Part shown: positions 1,057-21,985 of the stretch, in pieces | Layout of the letters: each line of letters starts with the position of its first letter | Position numbering within the stretch: the stretch's first letter is position 1 | Assembly: GCA_011389855.1 (NCBI GenBank) | Contig: JAABTM010000022.1 | Location: 1-33,812 of the forward strand | DNA length: 33,812 nucleotides | Direction: 5' to 3' | DNA from: Desulfobacteraceae bacterium | GTDB lineage: Bacteria; Desulfobacterota; Desulfobacteria; Desulfobacterales; JAABSP01 | Position numbers and translations under genes: made by a program | The notes under the pieces: generated by a model | Database searches by the model: none | What the model was told of the DNA's origin: nothing | Seen by the model: the letters and a program-made list of their open reading frames with translations, nothing else

Positions 1057-2553
1057 ATGAGTTTAGAAAATAGGCTTGCTATTGCAATCAAGAAGGAAGC
1101 AGAAAAATTAATTTATAGGTACCATGAATACCACAACAATATACATGCGGAGTTTCTGAGAAACAAGAAAAGGTTAGGAGACTCTACACCACCAAAATCA
1201 ATAAAAAGACCAGACTATTGGGATATAGATAGAAAATTCAACCCTTTTTACGTTAGGCGCAAACATAAAAGTATCGCTAAATCAATAGCAAAAAAAATAA
1301 AATTACGATCATATAGACCGAATAAACCGTTCATAAAGGAAGTGCCAAAGCATGACGGCGGCAGACGAAAAGTAACCATTTATCAGATTCCAGACGCCGC
1401 TGTTTCTAAATTGTTTTTCAATCGTTTATTATCAAAGAATAAACATCGATTTAGCTCTTTTTCATATGCATACAGAAATGACAGGAATGTACATTTTGCG
1501 ATTCAAGACATTTCCGTAGATCTTAAAAATAGTGAACGTATCTTCATAGCAGAATTCGATTTCTCAGATTTTTTCGGATCGATTTCACATAATTATTTGT
1601 TTGATCAGTTTGGTAAAAATGGGTTCTTCATTAGCCCAGAAGAAAGATTTATTATTCGCGCCTTTCTTAAAGATAGAAAAGTTGGCATACCGCAAGGAAC
1701 TTCTATTAGTTTGTTTTTAGCCAATTTAACCTGTTGGAGTTTTGATCAAAAATTAGAAAAAGAAGGGGTGAAATTTTCTAGATATGCTGATGACACTATA
1801 GCATGGTCTCCAGAATATTCAAAAATTTGCAATTCATTTTTATTAATTAATGAATTTTCTAAAGAGGCTGGTATTAGAATTAACATTGCAAAATCAGACG
1901 GAATTAATTTATTGTCAAAACCCAATTTACATTCTGAAATATCATCAAAAAATTCCTTAGACTTCCTTGGCTACACTTTATCTGTTGATAAGGTATCTAT
2001 TAAAAGCAAATCCGTTACAAAAATTAAAAAACAAATTTCCTATATATTGTATCGAAACTTGATTCAACCACTTAAGCAAACTTCTCTCACGGGACAAACA
2101 ATACCTGCAAATGATAAAGATGAGAATTTTCTGTCCGCTATGATGCAGATTAGACGCTACCTATATGGTGGCTTAAGCAAGAAACAGATCAACGATTATC
2201 TATCAGGGAGAATTAATAGAATTTTCTTCAAAGGAATAATGAGTTTTTACCCATTGGTTGACGATACTGATCAATTGAAGGGGCTTGATGGTTGGCTTCT
2301 TTCAGTAATCCACCGCTCTTTACAACTGAGAGCTAAATTGTTATCGACATGGAATTTTAATCGATACCACATATTCCCTTTCAATCAAAGCCGTGACGAA
2401 TTGCTGGTGAGATGTGGAGAAGAAAAAATTTATGGCAAAAATCTTTTAGAACTACCCAGCTTTTTGCTGATACATCAAGCCCTTCAAAAAGGCTTAATTG
2501 AAAAAGGCATAGAAAAAATTATGAATCCTCGTTCACTTGGTTACTATTACTAA
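1057..2553 (+). CDS. Stand-alone reverse transcriptase, defence (DRT/UG)-like
   Basis: This 498-residue protein has the palm motifs of a reverse transcriptase: motif A with the catalytic Asp in EFDFSDFF (about D168), motif B IPQGTS (211-216), motif C YADD (243-246) and a FLGY motif (303-306). A roughly 85-residue basic N-terminal extension and a roughly 190-residue C-terminal domain flank the RT core. It lacks the maturase and HNH regions of group II introns, and I do not see the retron NAxxH and VTG signatures. It best fits the 'unknown group'/defence-associated RTs. The extreme C-terminus is three tyrosines (496-498). Start: GGAGG at 1048-1052, four bases before the ATG. The gene is strongly AT-rich and sits in a probable integron cassette behind its own promoter, RNA and terminator. 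The exact DRT class is unresolved; DRT9-like is my leading guess and DRT2-like an alternative. Confidence 0.85.
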   Translation: MSLENRLAIAIKKEAEKLIYRYHEYHNNIHAEFLRNKKRLGDSTPPKSIKRPDYWDIDRKFNPFYVRRKHKSIAKSIAKKIKLRSYRPNKPFIKEVPKHDGGRRKVTIYQIPDAAVSKLFFNRLLSKNKHRFSSFSYAYRNDRNVHFAIQDISVDLKNSERIFIAEFDFSDFFGSISHNYLFDQFGKNGFFISPEERFIIRAFLKDRKVGIPQGTSISLFLANLTCWSFDQKLEKEGVKFSRYADDTIAWSPEYSKICNSFLLINEFSKEAGIRINIAKSDGINLLSKPNLHSEISSKNSLDFLGYTLSVDKVSIKSKSVTKIKKQISYILYRNLIQPLKQTSLTGQTIPANDKDENFLSAMMQIRRYLYGGLSKKQINDYLSGRINRIFFKGIMSFYPLVDDTDQLKGLDGWLLSVIHRSLQLRAKLLSTWNFNRYHIFPFNQSRDELLVRCGEEKIYGKNLLELPSFLLIHQALQKGLIEKGIEKIMNPRSLGYYY

Positions 2554-7438: not shown

Positions 7439-8230
7439 TTATCGCCCGGAAAGCCGCCAAGCATCGCTCTCGGACACCAACGCCGCGAATCGCTCCCCGT
7501 TTTGTCCCTTTTCTTTGTAAAAGCGAAGGCATTCCCCGACGATTTCCACCACCTCGTCTTCATTGAACAAACCGGACAATTCCATCCCCAGCCTGGGATG
7601 ACGGCCGAGTTTTCCCCCTAAAAGCACCCGATATCCCTTATCCTTCGTCATGATGGCGCCGGTGGGGCACCCGGCCGCGCAACTTCCGCAGTAAAGACAC
7701 CGGCCCATGTCGATCCGGGGCGTCTTTCCGTCGTCTTCCAGGCGGACCGCCGTTTCCTTGCAGGCCGCCACACAGGCCCCGCACCCGGTGCATTCCTCGT
7801 CGGACACTCCGGGAACCGCGGCGCCGATGATGCCGATATCCCGGATCTGGGGCTGGGAGCAGGCGTTGGGGCAATCGGCGAGGGTGACGGTGAATTCGTG
7901 GTGGAATTTGAGGGGACCGCTGACGTGGGTTTTCAAGAAGTCCAAAAGATCCGCGTTTTGAAGCGTTTCTTCGATGCGCCGAAACAACCCGTCGCTCTCG
8001 ATGGTCCGATTCGGGCAGCCCCCGGACCCGAAACATGCGTCGATCCGATAGCCCTTGATTTCCCGCTCCATATTATTGAGATAGCGGGCCTGGGCGGCGC
8101 GGACATCGTCGATGTCCACCCGCCGTTTTCCGGCGGACAAAGCCTCTTTCTCCACTTGCGCTTTGACGCGTTTCCGAACGAAAAAGGGAACCTTCCCGAC
8201 GGCTGACTCGGCTTCCGGCGTCCAATTCAT
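7439..8230 (-). CDS. Siroheme/4Fe-4S reductase-like protein with PCP_red and ferredoxin domains
   Basis: The 263-residue protein starts at MNWTPEAE, chosen because AGGAAAGGAG lies about 9 bases upstream; a longer frame to 8290 has no such site. Residues 1-45 resemble the PCP_red domain (WTPEAE...VPFFVRK). They are followed by the siroheme/4Fe-4S pattern C66-x5-C72 and C120-x3-C124 (DCPNACSQPQI), then a two-cluster ferredoxin with C147, C150, C153, C157 and C178, C181, C184, C188. This domain set occurs in small sulfite/nitrite reductase-like proteins of sulfate reducers and other anaerobes, related to AsrC and the ferredoxin-like half of Dsr proteins. It is cytoplasmic. The substrate is unknown, and it stands alone without a visible electron-donor gene. 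Confidence 0.8.
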   Translation of the reverse strand: MNWTPEAESAVGKVPFFVRKRVKAQVEKEALSAGKRRVDIDDVRAAQARYLNNMEREIKGYRIDACFGSGGCPNRTIESDGLFRRIEETLQNADLLDFLKTHVSGPLKFHHEFTVTLADCPNACSQPQIRDIGIIGAAVPGVSDEECTGCGACVAACKETAVRLEDDGKTPRIDMGRCLYCGSCAAGCPTGAIMTKDKGYRVLLGGKLGRHPRLGMELSGLFNEDEVVEIVGECLRFYKEKGQNGERFAALVSESDAWRLSGR

Positions 8231-8369
8231 ACGGCGATGCTCCTTTCCTGAAAATAATGTCATAGAAGCATCCTTACCACGCCACACCACGGGGACGCAT
8301 TGACCGAAGTCAATTGTCGGGATTCCGGGATCATACCGATAGGGGACGAAAGACCGGCGGCCAGAGGGG

Positions 8370-10481
8370 TTATTTGGTCATCAGGGGAATGTCCCCTTTC
8401 CAGTCTCCGCCCGGCGGGTTTTCACGGAAATAGTCGAGCTGCAGGATCATGAACTCCGAGGCTTTGTCCGATTTTTCCTTCCACAACGCCTCGAATCCGG
8501 CCCTGGCCGTATCGAAATCCCCGTCGTAGAACGCGGCCAGCGCTGCTTCGTATCGCTCTTTGATCTCTTTCTGATCGGGAGTCGCATCGTCGGTGAAGGC
8601 CATCAGATCGAAGACGGCCACCGGTTTTTTCTTGCCCTTTACGATGAACCGGCCCACCTCCCTGGCGAAAAACCGTTCCGCGGCGGCGGGATCGGAGCGG
8701 ATGTGGGTCAGGGTCGATTCGCTGATGAGGGTGCGCGTGCCGAACAGTTTGTTCACCCCTTCCAGCCGGGACGCCAGATTGACGCCGTCCCCCATGACGG
8801 TGTAGTTGAACCGGGTGTTGGATCCCATATTCCCCACGAATACATCGGCGGTGTTGATCCCCATCCGGACGTGAACCTCCACCCAGTTGGGGGGCGGGGC
8901 CTCATTGAGTTCATCGAGGCGCCGCTGCATCAACAATGCCGTGTTGCAGGCCCGGACCGCATGGGTATCCTGGGGTTCGGGCGCGCCGAAAAAAGCCATG
9001 ACGGCGTCGCCGATGTATTTGTCCAGGGTCCCCCGCTGCCGGAAAAGTATGCTGGTCATTTCTTCGAAGTAAATGTGGAGAAAATCGATGAGCTTTTCCG
9101 GGTCCAGCCGTTCGGAGATGGACGTGAAATTGGCCAGGTCGGAGAAAAACACGGACAGCTCGTGACGCTCGCCCCCCAGGGCGATCTCCCCTTCGCTGGA
9201 GACGAGTTTGTCCAGGAGCTGCGGGGGCAGGTACTGTTGAAAGGCGCTGCGCAGAAATCGGGAATACCGCTGCTCCGTCAGTTGGATGACCGCCTGGCAG
9301 ACCATGAACGCGATGCCGAAGGCCATCACGGGAAAGGCGATGGGGATCAGGAGGTCGCACCGGACGAAGGCGACCGTGCCCGACGCGGCCCAGCTTAGCA
9401 TGCAGACCGGCAGCATGGCGAGGGCCAGAATCGGCCGCGGGAAAAGGAACAACAGGGCGGCGAGGGTGAAGAAAGCGGTCTGAAAGAGGAATTTCTGGAC
9501 ATCGGTCGGTGCGAAGATAAACCGGTCTTCGAGCAGCATGCTCAGGGTGATGGCCTGGAGTTCCACCCCGAAGGAGGTCAGGTAGCCGTTTTTCTGGGTG
9601 GAGAAAGGGGTCAGGAACACATCCCCGAGGTCTTCGACGGCCGATCCCACAAGGACGATCTTGTCTTTGAACAGCGCTTCCGGGAGGATGGCCGCTTCGC
9701 TGGCGGCAAAGGCTTCGAAGTTGTGATCCATTCTTTCAAGCCGGGTGGGCGGACCGGGGAAATCCATGAGCATCCAGGGGTTTTCGGGGCTCAGCCGAAG
9801 GCGCTCCGGGATGTCGAAGGGGCGGCCGGTGAAGAGCCGGTAAATGGTCGCGGCAAAGGCGTGGTGTCCGCCCGGGAAGGGATAGATGCTGGTCCATCGG
9901 TGGAAATCGTCCCCCTCGGATTTGGAGATGGAGTACCCCTCGTGGGTCGTCCGGGAGAATTCGGGCAGGATGTCGGACCGGATCACCGGCGCGACGCCGT
10001 CCACGGGGATGGAGAAATTCTTCACCAGAACGACCCGGTCCCCGGCCCGGGACAGGGCCGCGGCCAGCGCCCTGTTCGCCGCCGCCAGAACCTCCTGGGA
10101 GACCACCATGTCGGCGCCGGGCGTCCCAAGAAACATCTCGCCCACGTCCTCGTAGGACCGGTCCAGGAGCACGTCGATGCCGATGACGGCGGCCCCCTTG
10201 TCGTAGAGCTGGTTGACGAGATCGGCCAGGAGAAGGCGGGGGGTGGGGGACCGATACCCGTAGGCCATGGCCGATGGGTCGTCGATGAAAACGATGACGA
10301 TGGGGGTGTCGAGGGTGTAGCGGTCCGGTCCCCGGATGAGAAACCGGTAATCGATGGAGCGGTTTTCCAGCCGCTTGAGCAGCGATTCCCCCATCTCCGC
10401 AACCTGGGGCAGCGACAGGACGATGGCGACGATCAGGGCGAAGAGAACCTTGGATAACGGGGAAAGGCGGTTTTTCAGCAA
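8370..10481 (-). CDS. CHASE2-domain class III adenylate cyclase
   Basis: The 703-residue protein begins at TTG with GGGGAG upstream. An N-terminal helix (about 12-28) leads into an extracytoplasmic CHASE2 sensor domain (about 35-320; VIVFIDDPSAMAYG near its start). Three membrane helices (about 330-400) connect to a class III cyclase domain (about 438-620). Catalytic residues are present: metal Asp448 (FFSDLANF) and Asp492 (YIGDAVMAFFG), purine-selecting Lys488 and Thr561 (a Lys/Thr pair indicates ATP, hence cAMP), and transition-state Asn568 and Arg572 (GVNLASRLEG). A short helical tail (about 630-690) follows. It is the last gene of the five-gene set, 12 bases after the FecR/DUF4384 gene. 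It probably senses an envelope or external signal and makes cAMP; the ligand is unknown. Confidence 0.9.
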   Translation of the reverse strand: MLKNRLSPLSKVLFALIVAIVLSLPQVAEMGESLLKRLENRSIDYRFLIRGPDRYTLDTPIVIVFIDDPSAMAYGYRSPTPRLLLADLVNQLYDKGAAVIGIDVLLDRSYEDVGEMFLGTPGADMVVSQEVLAAANRALAAALSRAGDRVVLVKNFSIPVDGVAPVIRSDILPEFSRTTHEGYSISKSEGDDFHRWTSIYPFPGGHHAFAATIYRLFTGRPFDIPERLRLSPENPWMLMDFPGPPTRLERMDHNFEAFAASEAAILPEALFKDKIVLVGSAVEDLGDVFLTPFSTQKNGYLTSFGVELQAITLSMLLEDRFIFAPTDVQKFLFQTAFFTLAALLFLFPRPILALAMLPVCMLSWAASGTVAFVRCDLLIPIAFPVMAFGIAFMVCQAVIQLTEQRYSRFLRSAFQQYLPPQLLDKLVSSEGEIALGGERHELSVFFSDLANFTSISERLDPEKLIDFLHIYFEEMTSILFRQRGTLDKYIGDAVMAFFGAPEPQDTHAVRACNTALLMQRRLDELNEAPPPNWVEVHVRMGINTADVFVGNMGSNTRFNYTVMGDGVNLASRLEGVNKLFGTRTLISESTLTHIRSDPAAAERFFAREVGRFIVKGKKKPVAVFDLMAFTDDATPDQKEIKERYEAALAAFYDGDFDTARAGFEALWKEKSDKASEFMILQLDYFRENPPGGDWKGDIPLMTK

Positions 10482-10493
10482 AGCCGCTCCCCG

Positions 10494-11774
10494 CTATCGG
10501 CGGGCCAGGTGGAGCACCTGAACGTCCTGGCAGATATCGGGGAGGGCCGCCGCGACCGTCTCGCGGGAGAGATCGCTTCCCCCCGCAAGCACGCCGTTGA
10601 CGCCGGCCATCACGCCTTCCACCGCCCAGGACGGCATGGGCCCCGGCGAGGCCCATCCCCAAAGGTAATGGACGCCCGAGCCGGCGGGGACTCGCAGCAC
10701 GGCCAGTACATCCCCCGACTGTTTGCCTTCGGCCGCGGTTTCGCCGGCCAGTTTGTGCTTGAGGACCCATCCGGTCAGCCCGGACGAAGCGGCGATGCGG
10801 TACCGCCGCCCCTGCTTTTCCAGAACCGTCACGGGCGTTCCCTCGTTAAGCGTTCCCACCACCTCGGCGAAGGGCGTCTCGCCGGCGCGGACGGACACCC
10901 CGTCCTCCTTGGCCGACAGGGTCTCTTCGGCCGCCACCCGGCTGGCGAAAAACGTCCGGCCGGCCAGGGCCATGAGGTCGTCGGTATCCGGAAACAACCG
11001 GGTGGAAACCGCCTTGCCGTTGGGCGTTCGGGCGGTGTGGTAGACGTAGACGTACCGTTCCCGGCCCGTTTTGTAGGCGACCTGGAGGGCTTCTCCTCCC
11101 GTGGAGAGTCGGTCTTCCCGGATGGGCGCGCCGTTGACCGCCCACGCGCCGCCGGCCCCTTGCGCCCGGAGGGCCCGGTCGGCCAGGGCCTGGATGCCGG
11201 GATCGTCGGGAAAGAAGCTTTTGAGTTTCCATAGAATGTAGACGCTCCGGTTGGGGCTGTTCTCGGCATGGAAGGCGGCGGCCAGTTCCAGGGCCGCTTC
11301 GATCTTGTTCGGCGAGAGATGGTTGAAGCGGCTGAAGGCGATCCAGTCCTGCTGAAGCGGCGTCAGGTGACTCCTGACGGCATTGATCCGGGTCCGCTGG
11401 TTGGGACTGAAAAATTCAGCCACGAACGCCGAATAGCCCGAGGCGTCGTCGCCGGCCGCGCCGGCCGATCCTTCGGAAGCCCCGGCGCCGAAGGCGAGCG
11501 CCTGTTCCTGGTTCGCGGGGATCTTGATCAGGATCCCGTCCGGGGACAGGATCCGGGCAAAGGCGTCGGGCCCGGTTTTAACCGTGGCGCCGCCGGCGAC
11601 TTTGGCCCCGCGTTTGAGACGCTGCCAGTCCGCTCCGGGCGCGGCTTTGGTCTGGACGTCTCCGGTGGCCGACAACACGGTGCCGGTCGCGGCGAATGCC
11701 GGCGGCGCCAGGGTCGTCAGGGCCAGAAACGTCAGCGCCGCGATGCCGGCGCCGATCATCAGAAAGGGTTTCAT
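10494..11774 (-). CDS. Secreted FecR / SH3 / DUF4384-like protein
   Basis: The 426-residue protein starts at MKPFLMIG with AAGGAGG 5-6 bases upstream; the frame continues to 11810 but this start gives a proper signal peptide ending near PPAFA. After it comes a FecR-like domain (about 28-90; GTVLSATGDVQ, then a Gly/Lys-rich barrel). A helical region follows (about 115-200). Next is a DUF4384-like segment (about 210-270; YKTGRERYVYVYH) and an SH3-like barrel (about 280-330; AEVVGTLNEGTPVTVLEKQG). FecR domains in such proteins lack the iron-signalling context and often sit beside CHASE2 and TPS genes. The likely location is the periplasm or outer surface. The role may be to bind cell-wall or secreted partners encoded by the same operon. 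Confidence 0.75.
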   Translation of the reverse strand: MKPFLMIGAGIAALTFLALTTLAPPAFAATGTVLSATGDVQTKAAPGADWQRLKRGAKVAGGATVKTGPDAFARILSPDGILIKIPANQEQALAFGAGASEGSAGAAGDDASGYSAFVAEFFSPNQRTRINAVRSHLTPLQQDWIAFSRFNHLSPNKIEAALELAAAFHAENSPNRSVYILWKLKSFFPDDPGIQALADRALRAQGAGGAWAVNGAPIREDRLSTGGEALQVAYKTGRERYVYVYHTARTPNGKAVSTRLFPDTDDLMALAGRTFFASRVAAEETLSAKEDGVSVRAGETPFAEVVGTLNEGTPVTVLEKQGRRYRIAASSGLTGWVLKHKLAGETAAEGKQSGDVLAVLRVPAGSGVHYLWGWASPGPMPSWAVEGVMAGVNGVLAGGSDLSRETVAAALPDICQDVQVLHLARR

Positions 11775-11819
11775 GAACGCCTCCTTGCTTTTCATGGGTC
11801 GGGTTTGCAATCCTTTTTT

Positions 11820-14135
11820 CTAAAGCCAATTGCCGATGAGCAGAAACGGCCCCCAGAACGCGGGGTGGTGGAACCGGTCGTCCCCGATCATTCGGGTCTG
11901 GGCCAGCCGCAGCGCTTCCGCCTTGGGCTTTTTTTGCTGGTAAAATTCCCGGTAAAATTCCGTCATGATCCTGAACGCGGCTTCGTCGTCCGCGAACCAG
12001 AGGGTGGCCACGGCGCTGCTCACCCCGGCCTTGACCGCGATGCCGGCCAGCCCGAAGGCGGCCCATTCGTCCCCCAGGGCGGTCTGGCAGGCGCTCAGGG
12101 TCAGCAGGTCCACCTGATTGCCCCGGCGGCGGGTCTGGTCGATGATCCTTTCCAGGCGGTCCATGGTCAGTTTTTCGTTGTGGGTCAGCAGGAAAGTCTC
12201 ATCGGCGCCGCCGCCGAACACGCCGTGGGTGGCCATGTGGACGATGTCGTAATCGGCGTCGTCGAATGCTTGGGTCAGGTTGTCCAGGGTGAAGTTTTCG
12301 TCCAGCAGAACGGTCCCCCCCATCAGATGGTGGAGCGTTGACAGCTCCTGCTTGACGCTGGGAAGCGACGCAAAACCCTGTCGGGCCTCTGACAAGCCCT
12401 CCAGGAGGACTCCGCCGCTTGCTCCGTCCGCCGGTCCGGCGGTGGTGAGGGTGATGGCCGGCACCGTGCCCACGGCGTATTTTTGAACGAGAAACCGTTC
12501 GCCGTCGTAGAGCGTCGAAAAAGGGATGAGACGCAGCACGCCGTCCGGGGCGATCACCAGCGTGTCGATGTCGCGTTGGGCCAGCGCCGGTTCCATGGGG
12601 CGGATCAGCCAGTCGTGGAGGGTCCGTCCATCCTCTTCAAATCCCTCGCCCCGGCTGTTCTGGAGGCGGCGCCGGAACCGGCGGACGGTCCGGTCCAGTT
12701 CCGTCGCCGCCACCGGGACGGTGTACAGGTCGATGGCGTCCCGGGTCATGAGCAGGATCGCCAGGTAATCGGGGAAGGGGATGGGGTAGATCACCGCCGT
12801 ATGAGGGGCCATCTCCTCCGGCTTGATGGTGGTGGTCTCCAGGGCGGAGACGCAGGGATCCTGAAAATACTCCTGGAGTTCGACGGTTTTGAGCAGCTCC
12901 ATGGCGTCCCGCCCCTCTTCGAGCAGGGCCTTTCGGGCGTCGCCGTTTTTCCGGGACGCTTTTTCCAGGAGCAGCCGCGCCAGTTCCAGGTAGACCGGAC
13001 GGATCTTTTCCTGGAAGAGATCGTGCCGGTCCCGGTAGCCGGCGACCAGTTCCTGTCGGATGGGCGTCAGGGCCTCGACGGACAGCCGGTAGGACCGGAT
13101 GGCCTCGTCCATGTCGCCTGCGTCGGCGTGGAGCCGTCCCGCCCGCCAGTGGAGAGGATAGCGGATTTCCGGGGAGATCCCTGACTGCTGGGCGTGAAAC
13201 AGGGCGGACAGGGTGAGCGTCATGGCCTCCGCATTTCGGCCTCTGAGTTCGTAAAGCCGGCCGAGATCGCTCCGGGCCAAGGCCATCAGCTCGGGGTCGT
13301 CCAGTCGCGTCGCGATGGCGTCGGCCCGTTGCAGCGCCGAAAGGGCCATCGGATCCATCTCGTCGGCCGCATCCGGCCAGATTTGACGGCCCTCCATGGC
13401 CAGCAGCCCCAGGGAGACGAGATCCCGGCCCTTTTCATGGCTGTCGGGCCGGTCTCCGATCCCGGACAGGGCCTCCCGGACGGCCTCGACGGCGGCCTGG
13501 GGGTCGCCGAGGCGAACGCTGATCCGGGCCAGGTTGATGAGGAGCCGGGACCGAAGGGCCGGGGCTTCCGCCATCCGGTCGAGGAGATAGCGGCATTCCT
13601 CCCAGGCCGCCACCGCATCGACATAGTCTTTGCGGGAAGCATGGGCGACGCCGGTGTTGATGAGCACCCCGGCGAGGGCCTCCCGGCTGCCGGCCTTGGT
13701 GGCCAGATCCTCTCCCTTTTCCAGGAAAGCCATGGCCTGATCCGGCTGCCCGATGGCGAGATAGAGATCCCCCAGCCGGGCGTGGAACCGGGCCTTCTCC
13801 ACCGGATTCCGCACCCTGTCCGCGACCCCGGCGGCGGTTTGGAGGGTCGCCAGGGCGCGGTCAAGATGTCCCAGGGCCTGCAACGCCTTGGCCTGGGATA
13901 GAAGGGCCTTGAGCGCGGCCTCCGGTGCTTTCTCTCGTTGCGCCCGGTCGGCCGCCGTTTTCCAGAAATCGACGGCTGAGGCGAACTCGCCCCGCTGGTA
14001 ATGGGCCGATCCCTTTTCCATGAGATTCGAGATGGAATCAGATGCGGTCGCCGTAGAAGGCGGCGGGAACGCGGCCAGTATGAACAGCAGGGTTCCGGTG
14101 AAAAACCGGAGAATCCGTTTAGATGCCTGTGCCAT
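11820..14135 (-). CDS. Secreted TPR-CHAT protease-like protein
   Basis: This 771-residue protein has a signal peptide (RILRFFTGTLLFILAAF, cleaved near TATAS). About ten TPR-like helical repeats follow (about 35-370), then a linker and a C-terminal CHAT domain (about 500-771). CHAT is a caspase-fold (clan CD) protease domain; its expected dyad is intact, with His637 in HMATHG and Cys683 in LSACQTALG. Bacterial CHAT proteins range from separase-like proteases to gasdermin-activating and CRISPR-linked proteases, but those are cytoplasmic, whereas the signal peptide puts this one in the periplasm or outside. It starts 5 bases after the stop of the large repeat-protein gene and has no clear Shine-Dalgarno sequence, so its translation is probably coupled. 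Substrates may be the exoproteins encoded upstream; this is inference. Confidence 0.85.
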   Translation of the reverse strand: MAQASKRILRFFTGTLLFILAAFPPPSTATASDSISNLMEKGSAHYQRGEFASAVDFWKTAADRAQREKAPEAALKALLSQAKALQALGHLDRALATLQTAAGVADRVRNPVEKARFHARLGDLYLAIGQPDQAMAFLEKGEDLATKAGSREALAGVLINTGVAHASRKDYVDAVAAWEECRYLLDRMAEAPALRSRLLINLARISVRLGDPQAAVEAVREALSGIGDRPDSHEKGRDLVSLGLLAMEGRQIWPDAADEMDPMALSALQRADAIATRLDDPELMALARSDLGRLYELRGRNAEAMTLTLSALFHAQQSGISPEIRYPLHWRAGRLHADAGDMDEAIRSYRLSVEALTPIRQELVAGYRDRHDLFQEKIRPVYLELARLLLEKASRKNGDARKALLEEGRDAMELLKTVELQEYFQDPCVSALETTTIKPEEMAPHTAVIYPIPFPDYLAILLMTRDAIDLYTVPVAATELDRTVRRFRRRLQNSRGEGFEEDGRTLHDWLIRPMEPALAQRDIDTLVIAPDGVLRLIPFSTLYDGERFLVQKYAVGTVPAITLTTAGPADGASGGVLLEGLSEARQGFASLPSVKQELSTLHHLMGGTVLLDENFTLDNLTQAFDDADYDIVHMATHGVFGGGADETFLLTHNEKLTMDRLERIIDQTRRRGNQVDLLTLSACQTALGDEWAAFGLAGIAVKAGVSSAVATLWFADDEAAFRIMTEFYREFYQQKKPKAEALRLAQTRMIGDDRFHHPAFWGPFLLIGNWL

Positions 14136-14140
14136 ATCGG

Positions 14141-17100
14141 TTACCGTATTCCCGCGGCTTTCTGGAGATGGACAATGACGTCCCTTAAATCAACCATTGA
14201 ATCTGAAACGCCTCCTTTCGCCGCCGTATATTGCGCGCCGGTTATACTACCTGTTCTAACGCCTGTCAGCACTTTAAGAGCGACAATGGCGTTACCGAGG
14301 TGGGTATTGCCGGTTGGGGCTTTAAGCGTAATCGATGTCCGGGAAATGTTTTGAGCTTCATCCCTGAACTGAACGTAGATGGTTGTATCGCCGCCGGACG
14401 CCAGCTTCCACTGTTTCGTGGCGCTGTAGTTTTCCCATTTTCCGCCCTGGCCGAAATTGACGTCGCTGATGTACATCTCCGTGGCATTGGTGGCGCCGAG
14501 GTTCAACAAAACGCTGCCCGTCGTTCGGGCCTGGCTATTGGCATCGGTTTTCACCGTTGGGTTTTTCGGAGGCTCCGTGTCGAGCCAGAAGTCAAGGGGC
14601 GCGGTGGGGCCGATGCGTCCGCGGTTGTCTTCGGCCGCCACATGAGCGAAAAATTTGACGTAATCGCCTTTCAGCGCCCGGCTGGAGACCTTTCGCTTGG
14701 TCAAGCCGGGTTTGTTGGCGTTTCGCTTGTTGATGACGTGGTTTGCGTCGTTGTTGAAAGCATAATAGTATTTCTCGTTCCCGCCGTTAAGCGTGGGATC
14801 CCACTGGATGGTGACATTCGGGCTTCGGGTGATTTTTTCCGATGTCGCCCGGGTCAATTTCTGGACGAGTGTACTTCCGGCCCGCATGTTCCGGACGACG
14901 CCCGGTCTGCGAATGGGCGAGTTCCGTTTTTTGGCGACATCGAATCTGAAACCGATGAGCGGGGCATCGGTGGCGTGGGTGGTCGCCGCATCGGGTATGA
15001 CGCCTGACACGGTTTCATTGACGCCATTTCCAGTCGCGTCCCGCCATTGGTCGTATATTTCGTTAAAATCGTCGCCGATTACGTGGGCCGTGAACCTCAG
15101 GAAATAATCGGTCGAGGGAGACAGCTCGGTAAAGGAGAAGCTTCCGTCATCGGATGTTTGCGTCCATGCCCAGTCATTTGGATTGTTGGCGTTAATGGCA
15201 TTCACAATGACATAGGTGTTTGCGAGGGCCGGGTCGCTGATATTTTCGACTGTCCCGGAAAGCGTGTTGCCCGCCCCGCGCGCCAGCAGGATGTTGACTT
15301 GTTGGTTGGCCTTCTTGTCCGCGGGAGTGGTTTTTGTCGGATATCCGTCGGCCCTGGCGGCAACCTGGTAGTTGGCGATTTCCTGTCCGGCGTTGTCCGT
15401 TGCGGGAATGCCGCTGATGGCGTATCCGCCGTCCGGTCCCGTGCTGGTGGCCCAGAACAGGGTTTCCCCCGTGTTGCTTACGCGTGTGATTTCCACCGCG
15501 GCCCCGGCCACTGCTTGGCCCTGCGCCGTCACCAAACCGGAGATAACGCCGCCGTCGGCGAGTTGGAAGTCAACGTCGGCGGTCGGAAAAGCGGTCGGCG
15601 CTTCCGTTGCTTCAAGATATCCCTCCAGGATCACGGTGATGAGGTAATCGCCTAACCCATTGGGAACCTGTGGAATTTCATAATGGCCGTTCCGGTCGGT
15701 GGTGTCGTAATTCCAGAAAAAAGACGTTTCGGAATAGACGAATACCCATGCGCCGGCGGCTGAAGCGCCGTCCGGCAACGACACGGTCCCCCGGATCGCG
15801 CCGCCCTGACCCAATTCGATATCAATGTTGCGGCTAATCGATATGTCCCTGGGTTTGGTTTCTGTATAGACGGAATAGTTGGAATCCAGCGGCGGCCACA
15901 CTGTCAATTCGTAGTCGCTTGCGGGAATGATCCGATTGATGCTGTAGGCGCCATCGCTGCTCGTTTCGGCCCATGCATAACCGCCCATATCGCCAATTGA
16001 TTCGGACCAGACCTCGACCACCGCGCCCGCTACCGCCACCTCTGGATCGTTGGCGTCCGTCACTTTACCAGAAACCGTGAGGGTCCCGCTATTTTTGCTC
16101 AAGATCAGTTCCATCGGGTTGCAGTCGGTGGAGCACGTTTTCACATTATTTTTAAATCCCGGAAGATAGTCGGATCCCCAGTCGGGCCACACGCTGACTT
16201 CATAATCCAATCCTTCGGGAAGTCCGGAAATGGTAAATTCTCCATTAATGTTCGTATAGCTTTCGTTGCCGGCCAGTTGTTTGTCGGACCATGCGCTGAC
16301 CCAGACGCCGGAGATCGGTTTGCCGGAAGCGTTGAGCACCTTGCCGATGATTCGTTTCCCGGCCTGGATGGCGATGTCGATCCCTTCCGGAGGGTCGTCA
16401 AGGGTGCTGACAGGGGCGGCGACCGTGTAGTCCCGGACGGTTTTTCCGCCGGCGCCATAATAGAAAAATCCCAGTTCACCGCCGTCGGCTTCGACGATGA
16501 AATCGTTCGCGGCGTAAAGACCGGGGATGGTGTAGGTCCCGTCATTGCTGGAATAGGTCTCTCCCCAAGAAAAAGTGCTTTCCGACCAGGCGGATACAAA
16601 AACGCCGCCCACGCCGGCGTTGGATGCGCCGTCAATGATCTTCCCGGAGATCGTCGTTCCCCGGGATAAGGTGAAATTGACATCGTTCCTGTTGGTCGCC
16701 ACCGGTACGGCCGTTTCATAATCGCTGCTGTTGTCGTAATACAGCGGCATGGACGTTTCCGGCCATATGCTGACAATGTAGTCGTTCCCTGAAACCAGCC
16801 CCCCGATGGTGTAAGGGATATCGCAAGGGGCGTCGGCGCAGTCCTGGGGCGTTACTTCGATTTCCACTCCGGACCCGTATCCGGTGGAAAGAGATTCGGC
16901 GTTCACCCAGATGATCTCCGCTGTTTCCACCGTCGCCGCCAGGGTGATGACGCCGCTGATGCCGGCAAGTCCCGCCGTGTCTACCAGTTGGAAATCGATT
17001 CCCCCCTTGGAACCGGCGGTGATGTCCACCGGTGTACTCTCCGACCAGTCATATCCGAGTGGGTAAACCTGATAAAGATGAAAATCGGGGTAGATTTCCA

Positions 17101-19060
17101 CGATGTAATCCGACGCCGCAGGCAGGTCGGCGATGGTGTATTGGACTGGCGATCCCGCGCCCACGATCAGAACGTCCCCATAATAATCGTTCGAGGGGGA
17201 CCAGGCGCTGATGACGGCCGTTTCGTCCGCAGACAGGTTGGAAACCGTTCCGGAAATGCTGTTGCCCTGAAAATTCGCCAGCTCGAAGTTCGCGACCCCG
17301 CTGGCCGATGCGGTCACGGTTGCCGGTTGACTTGGCAGGGGCATGCCTTCGTAGGTATAGACAGAGACCTCGTAGGTTCCTGGAATGACGCCTTCGATGG
17401 CGTAGTTTCGATCATTTTCAAGCGTTCCAAGGGTCTCCGCGCCGAACCAGGCGCCTGTATCAGGATCCCACGCTTCCACCCACGCCCCCGGATAAGCGGC
17501 GCCGTTGAGGGTCACCTTTCCATATATGGCGGCGGCGCCGACCGATATGTCGATGTTTCGCATTTCCGTGCTGGATGGATTGACCGGGGTGGCGTTTTCC
17601 CCGGAAAGCACGCTCGCGGCGGCGCCGTAGTAGGCCCCCGCGCCAATGTCCGGCCAGGCGGAAACGATGTATTGCTGATTCGGATCAAGGCCGAAGATTT
17701 GATAATTCCCTTCCGCGTCCGTGACTGTGTCGCTGACGAATTCATAGTCAGGGGTCCATGCCTCGACCCATAGTCCGGTATCTGGAACGGCCCCGCCGAC
17801 GGTGACGGCGCCCTTTATCACGCCCTCTAAAGCCGATGGGTCGAGGTCGAGATAAACGTCGAGGGAGACGGCGCCTTCCGTTAGATCAACAGGGTCCGCC
17901 ATTTCCTCGCTCATTTTTCTGTCGTAATAAATGGGTGGAAGATCCGGGCTGTAGACGGCCACAATATAGTCGCCGGCCGGCGGCAAATCCGAAAAGGCAA
18001 ACTCACCCATGGGGTCGGTTATCTGGTAATCGTAATAGAATGTGGCGTCGGACCAGATCTCCACCTCGACGCCGCTGAGTTCGTGCCAAACCCTGAGTGA
18101 TGATTCGGGCGGGTCGTCCGTTGTCCAAACCGTTCCGGTGAGCGAAACCCCGACAACATCGGTCGTCAGATTGAAATTCACGTTGTCGGCGCCGGTGACC
18201 ACCGGGTCCGGATAAATCTGATATGGATAATTCACAGGGTAAACTTCCACGGTGTAGCCTTCAATTGGGTCGGACGTTTCCGCTAGGCCGATAATGGTGT
18301 AACACCCTGTTTCATCGGTGATCGCATCGGATTCCGAGCCCAATAATTCGGACCAGGCGTACACCCATGTGTCCGGCGCGGGATCGCCAAGTTCGTCCCG
18401 CACGCACCCGGAAATGGTTCCACCCGAGGAAATGTTGAAAACAACATCGGAACGGCCCGTGACGACCAGTTCCGGGTATTGGAAGGATGTATTGTGGGCG
18501 TATGCTTCCACAATATAACCGGAAGCTGGGTCCGCGGTTTCCACCAGTCTGGTGAACTGATAAAAGCCTGATGCATCGGTATAAACAAAAGACCCCGCGT
18601 CGAGGGCCTCGGACCATGCGTACATTTCCGCATCCGGGATGGGAGCGCCGCCGGAGTCGTAGACATATCCGGAAATCGTTCCGCTCGGGACGGTGAAATT
18701 TACGTCGAATCGACCCGTTACAACGGATTCTGGGTAATAATAATAATAATTTTGGGAGATAGTGTCGTCCCAAAACTCGAGCATCACGGTATATCCCGAG
18801 GCCGGGTCGGTGGTTCCCGCGAGCCCGGTGATTTGATAAAAGCCTGATGCATTGGAAATAGCGGAAGATTCCGTGCCGAGAGCGTCGGACCATGCGTACA
18901 CCGACGCATCCGGGAGGGGAGCGCCGTCAGGGCCGTACACGTATCCGGATATACTGTCTATTTGCCCGAATGCAACGCTCGCCATAGTTAGCGTAAAGCA
19001 GAATAACACCAGGCCGACCCAGTTCAATTTCATTCCCCTTTTAATGCTGATCGCTTCCAT
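14141..19060 (-). CDS. Giant secreted protein with about 14 carboxypeptidase-regulatory-like repeats and dockerin-like end
   Basis: The 1639-residue protein starts at 19060 with a GAGGGGGGG run before the ATG; an internal ATG (19033) has poorer spacing. A signal peptide ends near SVAFGQ. From about residue 35 to 1380 a module of about 90-100 residues recurs about 14 times. Each opens with ISG-V or a variant and contains an (A/V)WS-type strand and a G-Y-I-GL segment, as in carboxypeptidase regulatory-like (Ig-like prealbumin) domains. Examples start ISGYVYGPDG, IKGAVTVGG, ISGKIIDGAS and ISGLVTAQG. A fibronectin/Ig-like part follows (about 1400-1560), then two dockerin-like half-repeats (NAIVALKVLTG and MVDLRDVIVHLQKAAG) at the C-terminus. 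It is very likely an outer-surface structural or adhesive fibre. It lies 33 bases after the TPS exoprotein gene. Confidence 0.85.
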   Translation of the reverse strand: MEAISIKRGMKLNWVGLVLFCFTLTMASVAFGQIDSISGYVYGPDGAPLPDASVYAWSDALGTESSAISNASGFYQITGLAGTTDPASGYTVMLEFWDDTISQNYYYYYPESVVTGRFDVNFTVPSGTISGYVYDSGGAPIPDAEMYAWSEALDAGSFVYTDASGFYQFTRLVETADPASGYIVEAYAHNTSFQYPELVVTGRSDVVFNISSGGTISGCVRDELGDPAPDTWVYAWSELLGSESDAITDETGCYTIIGLAETSDPIEGYTVEVYPVNYPYQIYPDPVVTGADNVNFNLTTDVVGVSLTGTVWTTDDPPESSLRVWHELSGVEVEIWSDATFYYDYQITDPMGEFAFSDLPPAGDYIVAVYSPDLPPIYYDRKMSEEMADPVDLTEGAVSLDVYLDLDPSALEGVIKGAVTVGGAVPDTGLWVEAWTPDYEFVSDTVTDAEGNYQIFGLDPNQQYIVSAWPDIGAGAYYGAAASVLSGENATPVNPSSTEMRNIDISVGAAAIYGKVTLNGAAYPGAWVEAWDPDTGAWFGAETLGTLENDRNYAIEGVIPGTYEVSVYTYEGMPLPSQPATVTASASGVANFELANFQGNSISGTVSNLSADETAVISAWSPSNDYYGDVLIVGAGSPVQYTIADLPAASDYIVEIYPDFHLYQVYPLGYDWSESTPVDITAGSKGGIDFQLVDTAGLAGISGVITLAATVETAEIIWVNAESLSTGYGSGVEIEVTPQDCADAPCDIPYTIGGLVSGNDYIVSIWPETSMPLYYDNSSDYETAVPVATNRNDVNFTLSRGTTISGKIIDGASNAGVGGVFVSAWSESTFSWGETYSSNDGTYTIPGLYAANDFIVEADGGELGFFYYGAGGKTVRDYTVAAPVSTLDDPPEGIDIAIQAGKRIIGKVLNASGKPISGVWVSAWSDKQLAGNESYTNINGEFTISGLPEGLDYEVSVWPDWGSDYLPGFKNNVKTCSTDCNPMELILSKNSGTLTVSGKVTDANDPEVAVAGAVVEVWSESIGDMGGYAWAETSSDGAYSINRIIPASDYELTVWPPLDSNYSVYTETKPRDISISRNIDIELGQGGAIRGTVSLPDGASAAGAWVFVYSETSFFWNYDTTDRNGHYEIPQVPNGLGDYLITVILEGYLEATEAPTAFPTADVDFQLADGGVISGLVTAQGQAVAGAAVEITRVSNTGETLFWATSTGPDGGYAISGIPATDNAGQEIANYQVAARADGYPTKTTPADKKANQQVNILLARGAGNTLSGTVENISDPALANTYVIVNAINANNPNDWAWTQTSDDGSFSFTELSPSTDYFLRFTAHVIGDDFNEIYDQWRDATGNGVNETVSGVIPDAATTHATDAPLIGFRFDVAKKRNSPIRRPGVVRNMRAGSTLVQKLTRATSEKITRSPNVTIQWDPTLNGGNEKYYYAFNNDANHVINKRNANKPGLTKRKVSSRALKGDYVKFFAHVAAEDNRGRIGPTAPLDFWLDTEPPKNPTVKTDANSQARTTGSVLLNLGATNATEMYISDVNFGQGGKWENYSATKQWKLASGGDTTIYVQFRDEAQNISRTSITLKAPTGNTHLGNAIVALKVLTGVRTGSITGAQYTAAKGGVSDSMVDLRDVIVHLQKAAGIR

Positions 19061-19093
19061 ATGCCCCCCCCTCTTACTTAAAGATATTCGTTG

Positions 19094-21985
19094 CTAAAAC
19101 GGGCTCGCCAGCCAGTCGTCCACCGGCGTGGGCGCGCCCTCTCGTTCTTTGACAATGAACCGACTGGCGTCTTCCACCGCCCTTTCGGCGCAGGATTTGA
19201 CGATCCACTGGCCGGCGTCCAGGAACTGATCCGGCAGCACGGCCAGAAAGCTGCTGATGTCGGTGACGGGCGATTCGATGAAAATGTCGCCGTCGATGCC
19301 GAGTTCCGAGGATGCCGACACGACGCTGTCGGGGGTGGTGATGAACTGGTCCGCCGTAATGCGGATGTTGCCGCCCCGGCCCTCGAAGGCCTTGGCGATG
19401 ATCTGTCCGTTTTTCAGGACGATGAACCGGGCGACCGCGTCGATGTCGCCCCCGTTTTCCGCGCCCTGCTGGACGCTGGTGGTGATGCGGCTGTCTTCCA
19501 GGTAGAGCATGTTCCCGCTGGTGATGTACATCCGGCCGCCGCCGGCGTTGACGGCTTCTGTTGTCGCTTCGCCGCCGTCGGTCATGGCGATGTCGCCGTC
19601 CGCCGAGATCGTGATCGTGCCGGCGTCCCCGGCGGCGCCGGTGTTCCGGCTGGCGGAGGAGATGGACGCTTCGCGGGCGACATCGAGCCGGCCCGTCGTG
19701 AGTCGGATGTTGCCGGCATTCCCGTAAGCCTGTTCGTCTATGACGCTGGCAAGGCTTTGGGTTTCGGTGCTGATGGTCGAGCCGTCGTCTGCCAGATTCA
19801 TCGATCCGGCTTCGATATTGATCTGTCCGGCATTGCCGCCTTTGTCGGTGTTCCGGCTGGCGGATGTGATGGACGCGCCCTCGGCGACGCTCAGGCTGGA
19901 CGTCGTCAGTTGGATATTGCCGGCATTCCCATAAGATTGTCCTCCAATGACGCTTACAAGGCTCTGGGTTTCGGTGCTGATGGTCGAACCGTCGCCTGTT
20001 AGATATACCGATCCGGCTTCTATACCGATCCGTCCGGCATTCCCGCCGGTCTCGACGCTGTCGCTGGAGGATGCGATGGCGCCGCCGCCGGCGATGCGCA
20101 GTTCGGATGCCGCGGACACCTCGATGGCGCCGGCGTTTCCCGGTCCCGAAGTGCTGGCGGCGATCCCGCCGCCGTTTTCGAAAATGACCTCGTTTCCACG
20201 AACGACGATATTTCCGGCATTGCCCGCGTCGGTCAATTCGGATTTGGCTGTTGTCTGGACCCGGCTGAATTCTCCGTTTGAATTGGCGCCGCTGAACAGG
20301 ATCGTCCCTCCTGCGGCGTCAAGCGTTACATCGCCGCCGCGGCCGGCGCCAAGAGACTCGCTTTTAATGCTGGCGCCGTCGGTGAACCGAATTCCCAGCG
20401 CCTTGAGCGTCACCCGGCCGCCCGCGCCGGCGGTCGGGCCCTGGCCGTCCACGGCGCCGGCGAAGATCTGGCTGTCGGCCACATGAATGAGATCGGCATG
20501 CGCTTCGCCGAGGCCCGACACGAAAACATCGCCGCCCAGACCGCCGCCGTCATACGTATCCGCATTGATTTTGGACGTGTCCGACATGGTAAACCGCCGG
20601 GTTTCAATACGGATATTGCCGCCGTCCCCATCATTGGCCGCCCCGCCCACCGTGCCGGAAAAGATGCGCCCGTCGCCGGAAAGGGTCACGGACGTTGATC
20701 CCTCAATGTGGATTTCCCCTCCGTTGCCGCTGCCGTAGGTGTCGCTGGAGACAAACCCGCCCGAAGATATGGCGACTCGTTCGGCGGAAATGCCGATGGA
20801 CCCGGCTCGTCCCTCCTGATGGTAGGCAGCCTGTGCGTCATCGTCGGCGGGATAGGGGGCGTCCGACACGAAATAGGTGTCCGCGAAGACGTGGCTGTTG
20901 TTTCGGATGTCGACGGAGTCGTTCGCCTCCAATCGAATCGAGCCGCCTGTGCCCGCCGCCTCGTCGGAACCGGGTTCAAAGGCCAACTGGTTGTCGGAAT
21001 AAATGTCGCCGTTGTTCAGGGTGATCGTATTCGCTTTGATGTCGATGCCGCCTCCATTTTTGGGGCCGTCGTTGTCCGCGGTAATGGACCCATTGTCCAA
21101 TAGGAAAGCACCGCCCTGAATGTAAATGTCGCCGGACCCGTTGCCGCTGGCGGTCAATTTTGCGCCTTCGGACAGCCGCACATTGCCCATTTGCCGCCGC
21201 GGGGTCAGGCCATCGGCTATGGGAAATTCGCCCGGCGAAGCAGCGGCGACGACCCTTATCCGGCCGGCCGGCGCCGAGAGCCGGGGAAATCGCATATAGT
21301 CCGCATCGTATTGCCCGCCATGGAGTCCACGAATGTCGATATCACCGCCAACAATGGAAATAGCCTCCCCTTCCTTGACCCGAAGGCCCGACTCCTCTTT
21401 CGATATCGACGGATCGACGGGTCCGCCCTCCAGGGCGATGCCGGCCGGGGAATCGGTCAGAAATCCAAACGCCTGGGGCTCGGCGGCCGAGAGCACGTCG
21501 CTCTCCGATGGTTGGGCGTAAAACCGGTCGGTTTCGCCCATCTGAAGGTAGTCCGCGGTGCTGACGTGGAACGAGCCCCCCAGGTCCAGGCGGGCATTGG
21601 AGCCGAAGACGATGCCGGAGGGGTTTAAAAGGAACAGGTTGGCGTTGGAGATCAGGCCGCTGCGCGTCAACGTCGAGGTCAGCGTGCCGTCGATCCGGGA
21701 CGACCCGCCCGTAATCCGCGCGACGATGTTGTCGATATCCGACGCGGCGGCGAAATCGGCCGCTTCATCCACCTGGATGTTCAGGGTTTTCAGGCTGTGG
21801 AAAAGATTGCCCCCGACCCGTTCTCCGTAGCTTTCCAGGACCGTGTAGGTATCGTTGCGAAGAGGGATCGACATCTCGCCGGAGGGGCCGACGGTCCCGT
21901 CGAGGGCCACCTGGGCGGCGGCCGGAGAAAAGAGGCAAAGCACAAAACTCCATAGCAGGACAGCGGAGGGGATGCAGGTTTTCAT
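19094..21985 (-). CDS. Two-partner-secretion exoprotein, FHA N-terminal type (TpsA-like)
   Basis: The 963-residue protein starts with a signal peptide (VLLWSFVLCLFSPAAAQ) and then a filamentous-haemagglutinin N-terminal TPS domain. Its markers are FHSLKTLNIQV, RITGGSSRIDGTLTS, ANLFLLNPSGIVFG and NARLDLGGSFHVSTADYL. The rest is a long right-handed beta-helix of Gly/Ala/Asn-rich coils (for example NAGNIRLTT and GNAGQINIEAGS), with at least one internally duplicated block near residues 650-750. The C-terminal tail contains a single Cys (SCAERAVEDASRFIV) as in many cyanobacterial and deltaproteobacterial members. A GGGAG run precedes the ATG. Export of TpsA proteins needs a TpsB/ShlB-type porin, which is not in this window. 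It is the first gene of the five-gene minus-strand set. Confidence 0.9.
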   Translation of the reverse strand: MKTCIPSAVLLWSFVLCLFSPAAAQVALDGTVGPSGEMSIPLRNDTYTVLESYGERVGGNLFHSLKTLNIQVDEAADFAAASDIDNIVARITGGSSRIDGTLTSTLTRSGLISNANLFLLNPSGIVFGSNARLDLGGSFHVSTADYLQMGETDRFYAQPSESDVLSAAEPQAFGFLTDSPAGIALEGGPVDPSISKEESGLRVKEGEAISIVGGDIDIRGLHGGQYDADYMRFPRLSAPAGRIRVVAAASPGEFPIADGLTPRRQMGNVRLSEGAKLTASGNGSGDIYIQGGAFLLDNGSITADNDGPKNGGGIDIKANTITLNNGDIYSDNQLAFEPGSDEAAGTGGSIRLEANDSVDIRNNSHVFADTYFVSDAPYPADDDAQAAYHQEGRAGSIGISAERVAISSGGFVSSDTYGSGNGGEIHIEGSTSVTLSGDGRIFSGTVGGAANDGDGGNIRIETRRFTMSDTSKINADTYDGGGLGGDVFVSGLGEAHADLIHVADSQIFAGAVDGQGPTAGAGGRVTLKALGIRFTDGASIKSESLGAGRGGDVTLDAAGGTILFSGANSNGEFSRVQTTAKSELTDAGNAGNIVVRGNEVIFENGGGIAASTSGPGNAGAIEVSAASELRIAGGGAIASSSDSVETGGNAGRIGIEAGSVYLTGDGSTISTETQSLVSVIGGQSYGNAGNIQLTTSSLSVAEGASITSASRNTDKGGNAGQINIEAGSMNLADDGSTISTETQSLASVIDEQAYGNAGNIRLTTGRLDVAREASISSASRNTGAAGDAGTITISADGDIAMTDGGEATTEAVNAGGGRMYITSGNMLYLEDSRITTSVQQGAENGGDIDAVARFIVLKNGQIIAKAFEGRGGNIRITADQFITTPDSVVSASSELGIDGDIFIESPVTDISSFLAVLPDQFLDAGQWIVKSCAERAVEDASRFIVKEREGAPTPVDDWLASPF

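Follow-up and report, generated by a model that had tools for sequence, protein, structure and literature searches.

TPS (two-partner secretion) exoproteins are among the largest proteins that bacteria export, and to our knowledge the processing, anchoring, and monitoring of their C terminus are understood for only a few pathogens. With classical two-partner secretion (type Vb, FhaB/FhaC), the locus analyzed here shares an N-terminal TPS domain, a beta-helix, and a dedicated TpsB transporter (POTRA_2 plus ShlB), often encoded next to its exoprotein at sister loci; it adds a TPR-CHAT peptidase, a C-terminal exoprotein segment with an invariant cysteine (TPS-C), and a CHASE2 receptor. A C-terminal signature on many exoproteins combined with a dedicated cysteine peptidase is found in PorU with the C-terminal domains of T9SS and in exosortase with PEP-CTERM, where the logic is alike but the secretion route and the sequence families differ. 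A survey of polymorphic toxins lists T5SS proteins with HINT peptidases, and caspase-like toxin peptidases are not listed there for T5SS (PMC3482391).

Judged from the predicted model of a relative, the TPR-CHAT protein has the same fold as Csx29 of Craspase (type III-E CRISPR), also a His/Cys peptidase, over ~580 residues (Z 31.9). The cut made by Csx29 lies in the C-terminal domain of its partner (PMC10028731), and the same logic is proposed here for the CHAT protein. Csx29 is activated by RNA through Cas7-11, whereas the protein described here has a signal peptide, no Cas partner, 11-14% identity, and a cysteine specific to its subfamily (Cys428); no cas gene was found among the operon and the neighboring genes scanned, and the locus appears to have neither the partner nor the cytoplasmic setting of Craspase. 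Separase, of clan CD as well, is alike in the fold of the CHAT half (Z ~25) but is eukaryotic and has cohesin as its substrate. HetF of Anabaena, the founding CHAT protein, is likewise associated with the envelope (PMC8406250), but it has one transmembrane segment and a role in the divisome. In Sinorhizobium, NsrA and the cyclases CyaD1, CyaD2, and CyaK also span two membranes with an outer-membrane protein and a CHASE2 receptor cyclase (PMC13001267, PMC7529298), but no CHAT or TPS protein is reported there and NsrA is not described as a TpsB. We found no paper describing CHAT with CHASE2 or CHAT with TPS, and the widespread envelope module is apparently undescribed.

The window, i.e., the whole stretch of 33,812 nucleotides that was analyzed (contig C449), comes from the genome of a sulfate-reducer-type bacterium, with 5.26 Mb in 569 contigs and 95% completeness. 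Five minus-strand genes lie end to end in it, encoding in order a TPS exoprotein, a repeat protein, a TPR-CHAT protein, an SH3 protein, and a CHASE2-cyclase (Table 1). The intergenic gaps are 33, 5, 45, and 12 nt, the third shrinking to 9 nt with the upstream TTG start of the SH3 open reading frame (10494-11810, minus strand; ATG start at 11774). An initial annotation, made from the sequence alone, had reported this co-directional arrangement, and it stands: a same-genus genome (L252) shares all five genes and their order, and the whole set was found nowhere else. Its further claims of signal peptides on the first four proteins, an intact CHAT dyad, and six intact cyclase residues agree with our reading, in which those four proteins open with signal-peptide-like stretches and every quoted residue is present. 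Pfam bears out the domain identities as well (TPS, 2e-29; CarboxypepD_reg, 5e-73; TPR plus CHAT, 2e-59; SH3_3, 2e-9; CHASE2, 2e-29; Guanylate_cyc, 4e-23). All five genes are under purifying selection, with dN/dS values against the sister genome of 0.15 for the cyclase, 0.20 for the SH3 protein, 0.26 for CHAT, 0.27 for the repeat protein, and 0.33 for the TPS exoprotein; identity is 48% for the repeat protein, the fastest diverging, and 84% for the cyclase. Consensus searches for an operon promoter and terminators gave the same counts as in shuffled sequences.

Table 1. Features of the five-gene operon, with positions in the window
Feature	Position	Strand	Support or remark
TPS exoprotein, TpsA/FhaB type, 963 aa	19094..21985	-	PF05860 2.3e-29, NCBIfam adhes_NPXG; operon gene 1
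Parts of the TPS exoprotein: signal peptide, TPS secretion domain, beta-helix, C-terminal signature	19094..21985	-	
TPS-C signature, aa 910-962, ~50 residues	19100..19258	-	Outside every Pfam/NCBIfam model
Cys932 codon, exoprotein	19190..19192	-	Sole cysteine beyond the signal peptide
Secreted repeat protein, 1639 aa, 9-12 CarboxypepD_reg/transthyretin-like repeats	14141..19060	-	PF13620 5e-73
Dockerin-like C-terminal tag, repeat protein	14144..14311	-	1 of 24 matches in the genome
Secreted TPR-CHAT protein, 771 aa, clan CD cysteine peptidase fold	11820..14135	-	PF12770 1.8e-59
CHAT Cys428 codon	12852..12854	-	106/107 TPS-linked CHATs, 0/33 other CHATs
CHAT catalytic His637 codon	12225..12227	-	107/107 and 33/33
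CHAT catalytic Cys683 codon	12087..12089	-	107/107 and 33/33
Secreted SH3_3 protein, 426 aa, FecR-like N-terminal stretch (no Pfam support)	10494..11774	-	PF08239 1.6e-9; kept in sister genome
CHASE2 receptor plus class III adenylate cyclase, 703 aa	8370..10481	-	PF05226 1.8e-29, PF00211 3.7e-23

What recurs across many phyla is a core of TPS, TpsB, TPR-CHAT, and CHASE2, often with DUF928. In 297 genomes of the phylum, the CHAT protein has two kinds of match: full-length relatives (31-46% identity), which adjoin TPS, TpsB, CHASE2, and DUF928 genes, and relatives of the CHAT domain only. A scan of GTDB yielded 79 loci in Desulfobacterota, Nitrospirota, Cyanobacteria, several proteobacterial classes, Verrucomicrobia, Myxococcota, Planctomycetes (Scalindua), and others. 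Among loci of at least 15 kb, a TPS or TpsB gene lies within ~10 kb of 35 of the 46 full-length relatives and of none of the 21 domain-only CHATs of the phylum (Fisher, 1e-9); once the C-terminal signature described below is used, 38 of the 46 have one and 8 lack both. The recurrence in cyanobacteria and deltaproteobacteria that the initial annotation had described holds for the core but not for the five-gene set; few or no relatives of its SH3 and repeat proteins were found elsewhere. The set is complete on a conjugative plasmid of Nostoc (L283, NZ_CP151101.1), where individually annotated genes encode CHASE2, DUF928, a TPS-like protein (labeled "S-layer family protein"), ShlB, CHAT, and a further TPS protein, indicating that the module can travel. 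The TpsB elsewhere in the genome, the fusions of TPS with CHAT, the TPS-C signature, and the subfamily-specific cysteine described in the following paragraphs all go beyond the initial annotation.

The exoprotein is of the TpsA type, its TPS domain (PF05860, 2.3e-29) following the signal peptide at aa 24-278, and the single TpsB-like transporter (ShlB/POTRA_2) found in the genome, its putative partner, lies outside the operon on contig C544. Exoproteins paired with this CHAT subfamily end in a common segment of ~50 residues, TPS-C, with the consensus SGxLxxLPxxFLDAxxLLxxxCxARxxxxxSSFxxxGRxGLPxxPxxxLxSP, which no Pfam or NCBIfam model covers. Its cysteine is present in all 91 nonredundant segments, 94.5% of which have exactly one cysteine; the cysteine in the window exoprotein is Cys932. 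An arginine was considered as a conserved cleavage residue and rejected, since the motif R-[DGEN]-G occurs in only 56% of the signatures and no single cleavage site stands out. TPS-C is absent from all 27 TPS loci without CHAT. In the phylum sample, it is found in 7 of 7 genomes with the CHAT subfamily and in 0 of 23 other TPS-positive genomes, and a search of whole genomes with the signature alignment gave, besides those 7, only one chance frame with stops and the fragmentary G168, whose short locus truncates both the TPS and the TpsB gene. Among 242 genomes of the order, TPS-C occurs in 34 and the CHAT subfamily in 35, with both in 33 of the 36 carrying either (CHAT only, 2; signature only, 1; neither, 206; Fisher, 4e-37). 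CHAT-linked proteins went into building the TPS-C model. From a comparison of loci with contigs, we estimate that its seeds derive from about 4 among the 33 order genomes having both and 4 among the 7 phylum genomes, meaning that most, not all, of this co-occurrence test is independent. Copy numbers of CHAT (tallied up to four per genome) and signature also correlate (Spearman, 0.90, approximate). The co-occurrence is overwhelming: the unit is the TPS-CHAT pair, and the signature is its hallmark. One locus of Desulfonema magnum (L272, 2186-15920) has four tandem signature-bearing TPS genes followed by one CHAT gene and one DUF928 gene.

On the side of the peptidase, the His/Cys dyad of PF12770 (His637 in HMATH and Cys683 in SAC, within a TPR plus CHAT match of 2e-59) is invariant in 107/107 TPS-linked CHATs and 33/33 other CHATs. 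Cys428, between TPR and CHAT in the motif LQ(D/E)YFQDxC, is present in 106/107 of the former and 0/33 of the latter. Past residue 40, 39 of the 107 paired CHATs have exactly two cysteines, and conservation picks out two columns, 428 and 683; DUF928, TpsB, and CHASE2 have no conserved cysteine column. At one locus (L199), a CHAT adjoining a TPS gene lacks Cys428 and its TPS protein lacks the signature, a single natural negative control.

Eight open frames join TPS and CHAT and contain the signature (L010, L054, L099, L100, L101, L103, L117, and L143). The signature lies 725-780 residues before the end, with TPR repeats directly after it and no signal peptide between; the frames have no ambiguous base, and those of L010 and L103 start inside the beta-helix. 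A further TPS-CHAT frame (L053) has no detected signature. Unfused CHATs start with a hydrophobic export signal in 53 of 67 cases by a simple count and in several others by eye. An apparent TpsB-CHAT fusion in L127 was rejected: an ambiguous assembly base is followed by a new Met and a signal peptide, so these are two genes. An AlphaFold2 model of the fused relative L101, covering the signature and TPR-CHAT, is confident from about residue 90 (mean pLDDT, 85.9), its best solved matches being the TPR-CHAT of Craspase (Z 31.9, 580 residues, 11% identity) and Csx29, followed by separase (Z ~25). The signature is of low confidence in this model, and no docking is seen.

How might such a module work? 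The operon, the co-occurrence of its core and of signature with CHAT subfamily, the fusions, the cysteine pattern, the intact dyad, and the purifying selection were observed directly, and a dedicated partnership of TPS tail and CHAT is very probable. Building on this, we propose that the exoprotein would be taken across the inner membrane by Sec and then through an FhaC/ShlB-type TpsB (C544) in the outer membrane, its C-terminal signature leaving the pore last and staying reachable from the periplasm. The Sec-exported TPR-CHAT protein would bind the signature, with Cys428 contacting or bonding the exoprotein cysteine, and would cut in or near the signature so that the exoprotein is released, matured, or anchored; in the TPS-CHAT fusions, the same step would be self-processing. 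CHASE2 in the inner membrane would sense the state of the periplasm, be it a free tail, a cleaved peptide, or an idle CHAT, and in this genus would change cAMP through the cyclase. On balance, this is the reading we favor: a widespread envelope module, centered on a TPS exoprotein and a dedicated TPR-CHAT peptidase, would work in these steps, and the operon would be the form of it that this genus conserves. The parts of this reading differ in strength. Cleavage of the tail by CHAT has about an even chance of being right, sensing of that step by CHASE2 is plausible but short of even, and the contact between Cys428 and the exoprotein is put forward tentatively; the compartment would be the periplasm. 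The initial annotation had suggested that CHAT acts on the exoproteins, and this idea gains ground as a working model, now with TPS-C as a candidate target region. Equally tentative is the full version, a processing or sorting system in which secreted TPR-CHAT would recognize TPS-C through the pair of Cys428 and the lone cysteine and cut in trans (in cis in fusions), while CHASE2, with interchangeable outputs, would report completion to the cytoplasm, in at least Desulfobacterota, Nitrospirota, Cyanobacteria, Proteobacteria, and Verrucomicrobia. If it is true, a dedicated caspase-fold partner in many environmental phyla would represent a whole new class of TPS exoprotein processing, TPR-CHAT peptidases, whose other known settings are mainly CRISPR and cell death, would have a role outside the cytoplasm, and there would be a hint at what the orphan sensor domain CHASE2 detects. 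The predictions are sharp, involving one segment, two cysteines, and one catalytic residue.

Signature and CHAT could also be co-inherited without touching. The signature might do no more than cap the structure of one TPS subfamily and serve as its TpsB anchor, with CHAT acting on incoming protein or envelope debris and traveling with TPS as a cassette for surface defense or conflict. TPS exoproteins are often contact effectors or adhesins, and co-occurrence would follow from operon linkage alone; caspase-like peptidases are, moreover, common in polymorphic toxin systems (PMC3482391). However, the signature tracks the CHAT subfamily and not TPS, as the 23 other TPS-positive genomes indicate, Cys428 is subfamily specific, and in the fusions the junction coincides exactly with the signature. 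Some signature genes (e.g., at L275, L280, and L281), moreover, have no CHAT within 14-20 kb on their contig or stretch, in genomes with a CHAT elsewhere, a pattern that simple operon co-inheritance does not predict. We therefore regard the cassette as somewhat unlikely. For the cysteine pattern, the simplest guess, again a tentative one, is direct contact between Cys428 and the exoprotein cysteine, its main rival being a redox lock inside CHAT, in which Cys428 would pair with the catalytic Cys683 and the exoprotein cysteine would have a separate role such as TpsB pairing or dimers. Control of cysteine peptidases by oxidation is established in general, and the paired CHATs with just two cysteines fit such a lock; it leaves unexplained, however, why the 33 other CHATs all lack Cys428 and why the exoprotein cysteine co-occurs with it, and TpsB has no conserved cysteine to pair with. 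The lock is, to our judgment, unlikely.

Could CHAT be an inactive scaffold in an ordinary adhesin or biofilm operon with a cAMP sensor, its TPR repeats doing the work? TPR makes up about half of the protein and matches many scaffold proteins, but the invariant dyad and the dN/dS of CHAT make this improbable. A defense system of the Pycsar or Craspase kind is suggested by PADLOC PycC profiles, which match the cyclase (4e-25), and by the TPR-CHAT fold common to Craspase. Yet the PycC profiles match nothing beyond the generic class III cyclase domain, each of the first four products has a signal peptide, the operon has no PycTM or TIR effector and no Cas gene, which sets it apart from Pycsar, and no relative of CHAT was found in 50,697 phage records; this explanation is thus very improbable. 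The most economical reading would be that a periplasmic CHAT may process or anchor the tail of the exoprotein.

The last gene of the operon encodes a CHASE2 receptor adenylate cyclase, combining CHASE2 with a class III cyclase in which the metal, adenine-specifying, and transition-state residues are present (Asp448, Lys488, Asp492, Thr561, Asn568, and Arg572); its best solved relative is CyaB (3r5g, 3.9e-33). In Sinorhizobium, CHASE2 cyclases work together with NsrA of the outer membrane (PMC13001267, PMC7529298), and CyaD1 without CHASE2 produces cAMP constitutively (PMC5498481), a precedent that supports a receptor role for CHASE2. CHASE2 lies near 28 of the 79 CHAT loci; since CHASE2 genes occur in 180 of the 297 phylum genomes, we estimate that a random 20-kb stretch would hold one in ~1% of cases. 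Specificity of CHASE2 for TPS-linked CHATs was rejected (21/46 versus 5/21 other CHATs; P = 0.11), suggesting that its link is with CHAT in general. The co-occurrence that the initial annotation had put up for checking lies far beyond chance. What CHASE2 is coupled to varies among sister loci: a class III cyclase, a histidine kinase and receiver (L267 and L154), an AAA-like domain (L161), or nothing (L055 and L103). cAMP, the reporter proposed initially, is therefore only one output and not the common one, and the constant part is the periplasmic sensor.

The repeat protein has 9 PF13620 stretches at E ≤ 0.01 and 12 at E ≤ 10, with relatives found only in the sister genome and at one locus of Desulfonema magnum (L274). 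There, a relative of 2748 aa is encoded directly beside a signature-bearing TPS gene, downstream or upstream, on the same strand; the locus has no CHAT in its 20 kb. The C-terminal tag, made up of two dockerin-like repeats, is matched 24 times in this genome and 87 times in Desulfonema magnum (another example is L009, 11622-14105). The proteins that carry it are large and secreted, and one of them has a glycoside hydrolase 123 domain. With such numbers, its nearness to CHAT is only weakly informative, and the tag was rejected as a part of the module. The SH3 protein was likewise rejected as a conserved part, as no full-length relative was found in the 297 phylum genomes. The FecR domain assigned to it initially finds no support in Pfam, of which no FecR family (PF04773) gave a match up to E 10, so the name reflects visual resemblance only; the protein may still be a diverged member of that family. 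Its single-sequence structure prediction was unusable (pLDDT, 36). A similar secreted FecR-like protein of 360 aa is encoded directly upstream of a CHASE2 gene in another genome (L177, 1435-3266), as in the window.

Just downstream of the operon, a NIR_SIR/4Fe-4S protein with a protochlorophyllide-reductase-like segment is encoded at 7439-8290 (minus strand). Further away, at 1057-2553 (plus strand), a reverse transcriptase gives a near full-length match to the defense family DRT9 (E 1.7e-217). This gene lies in a stretch of low GC content (33%) and is followed by genes for a ParA-like ATPase and a Uma2 nuclease; the stretch looks like an acquired defense island.
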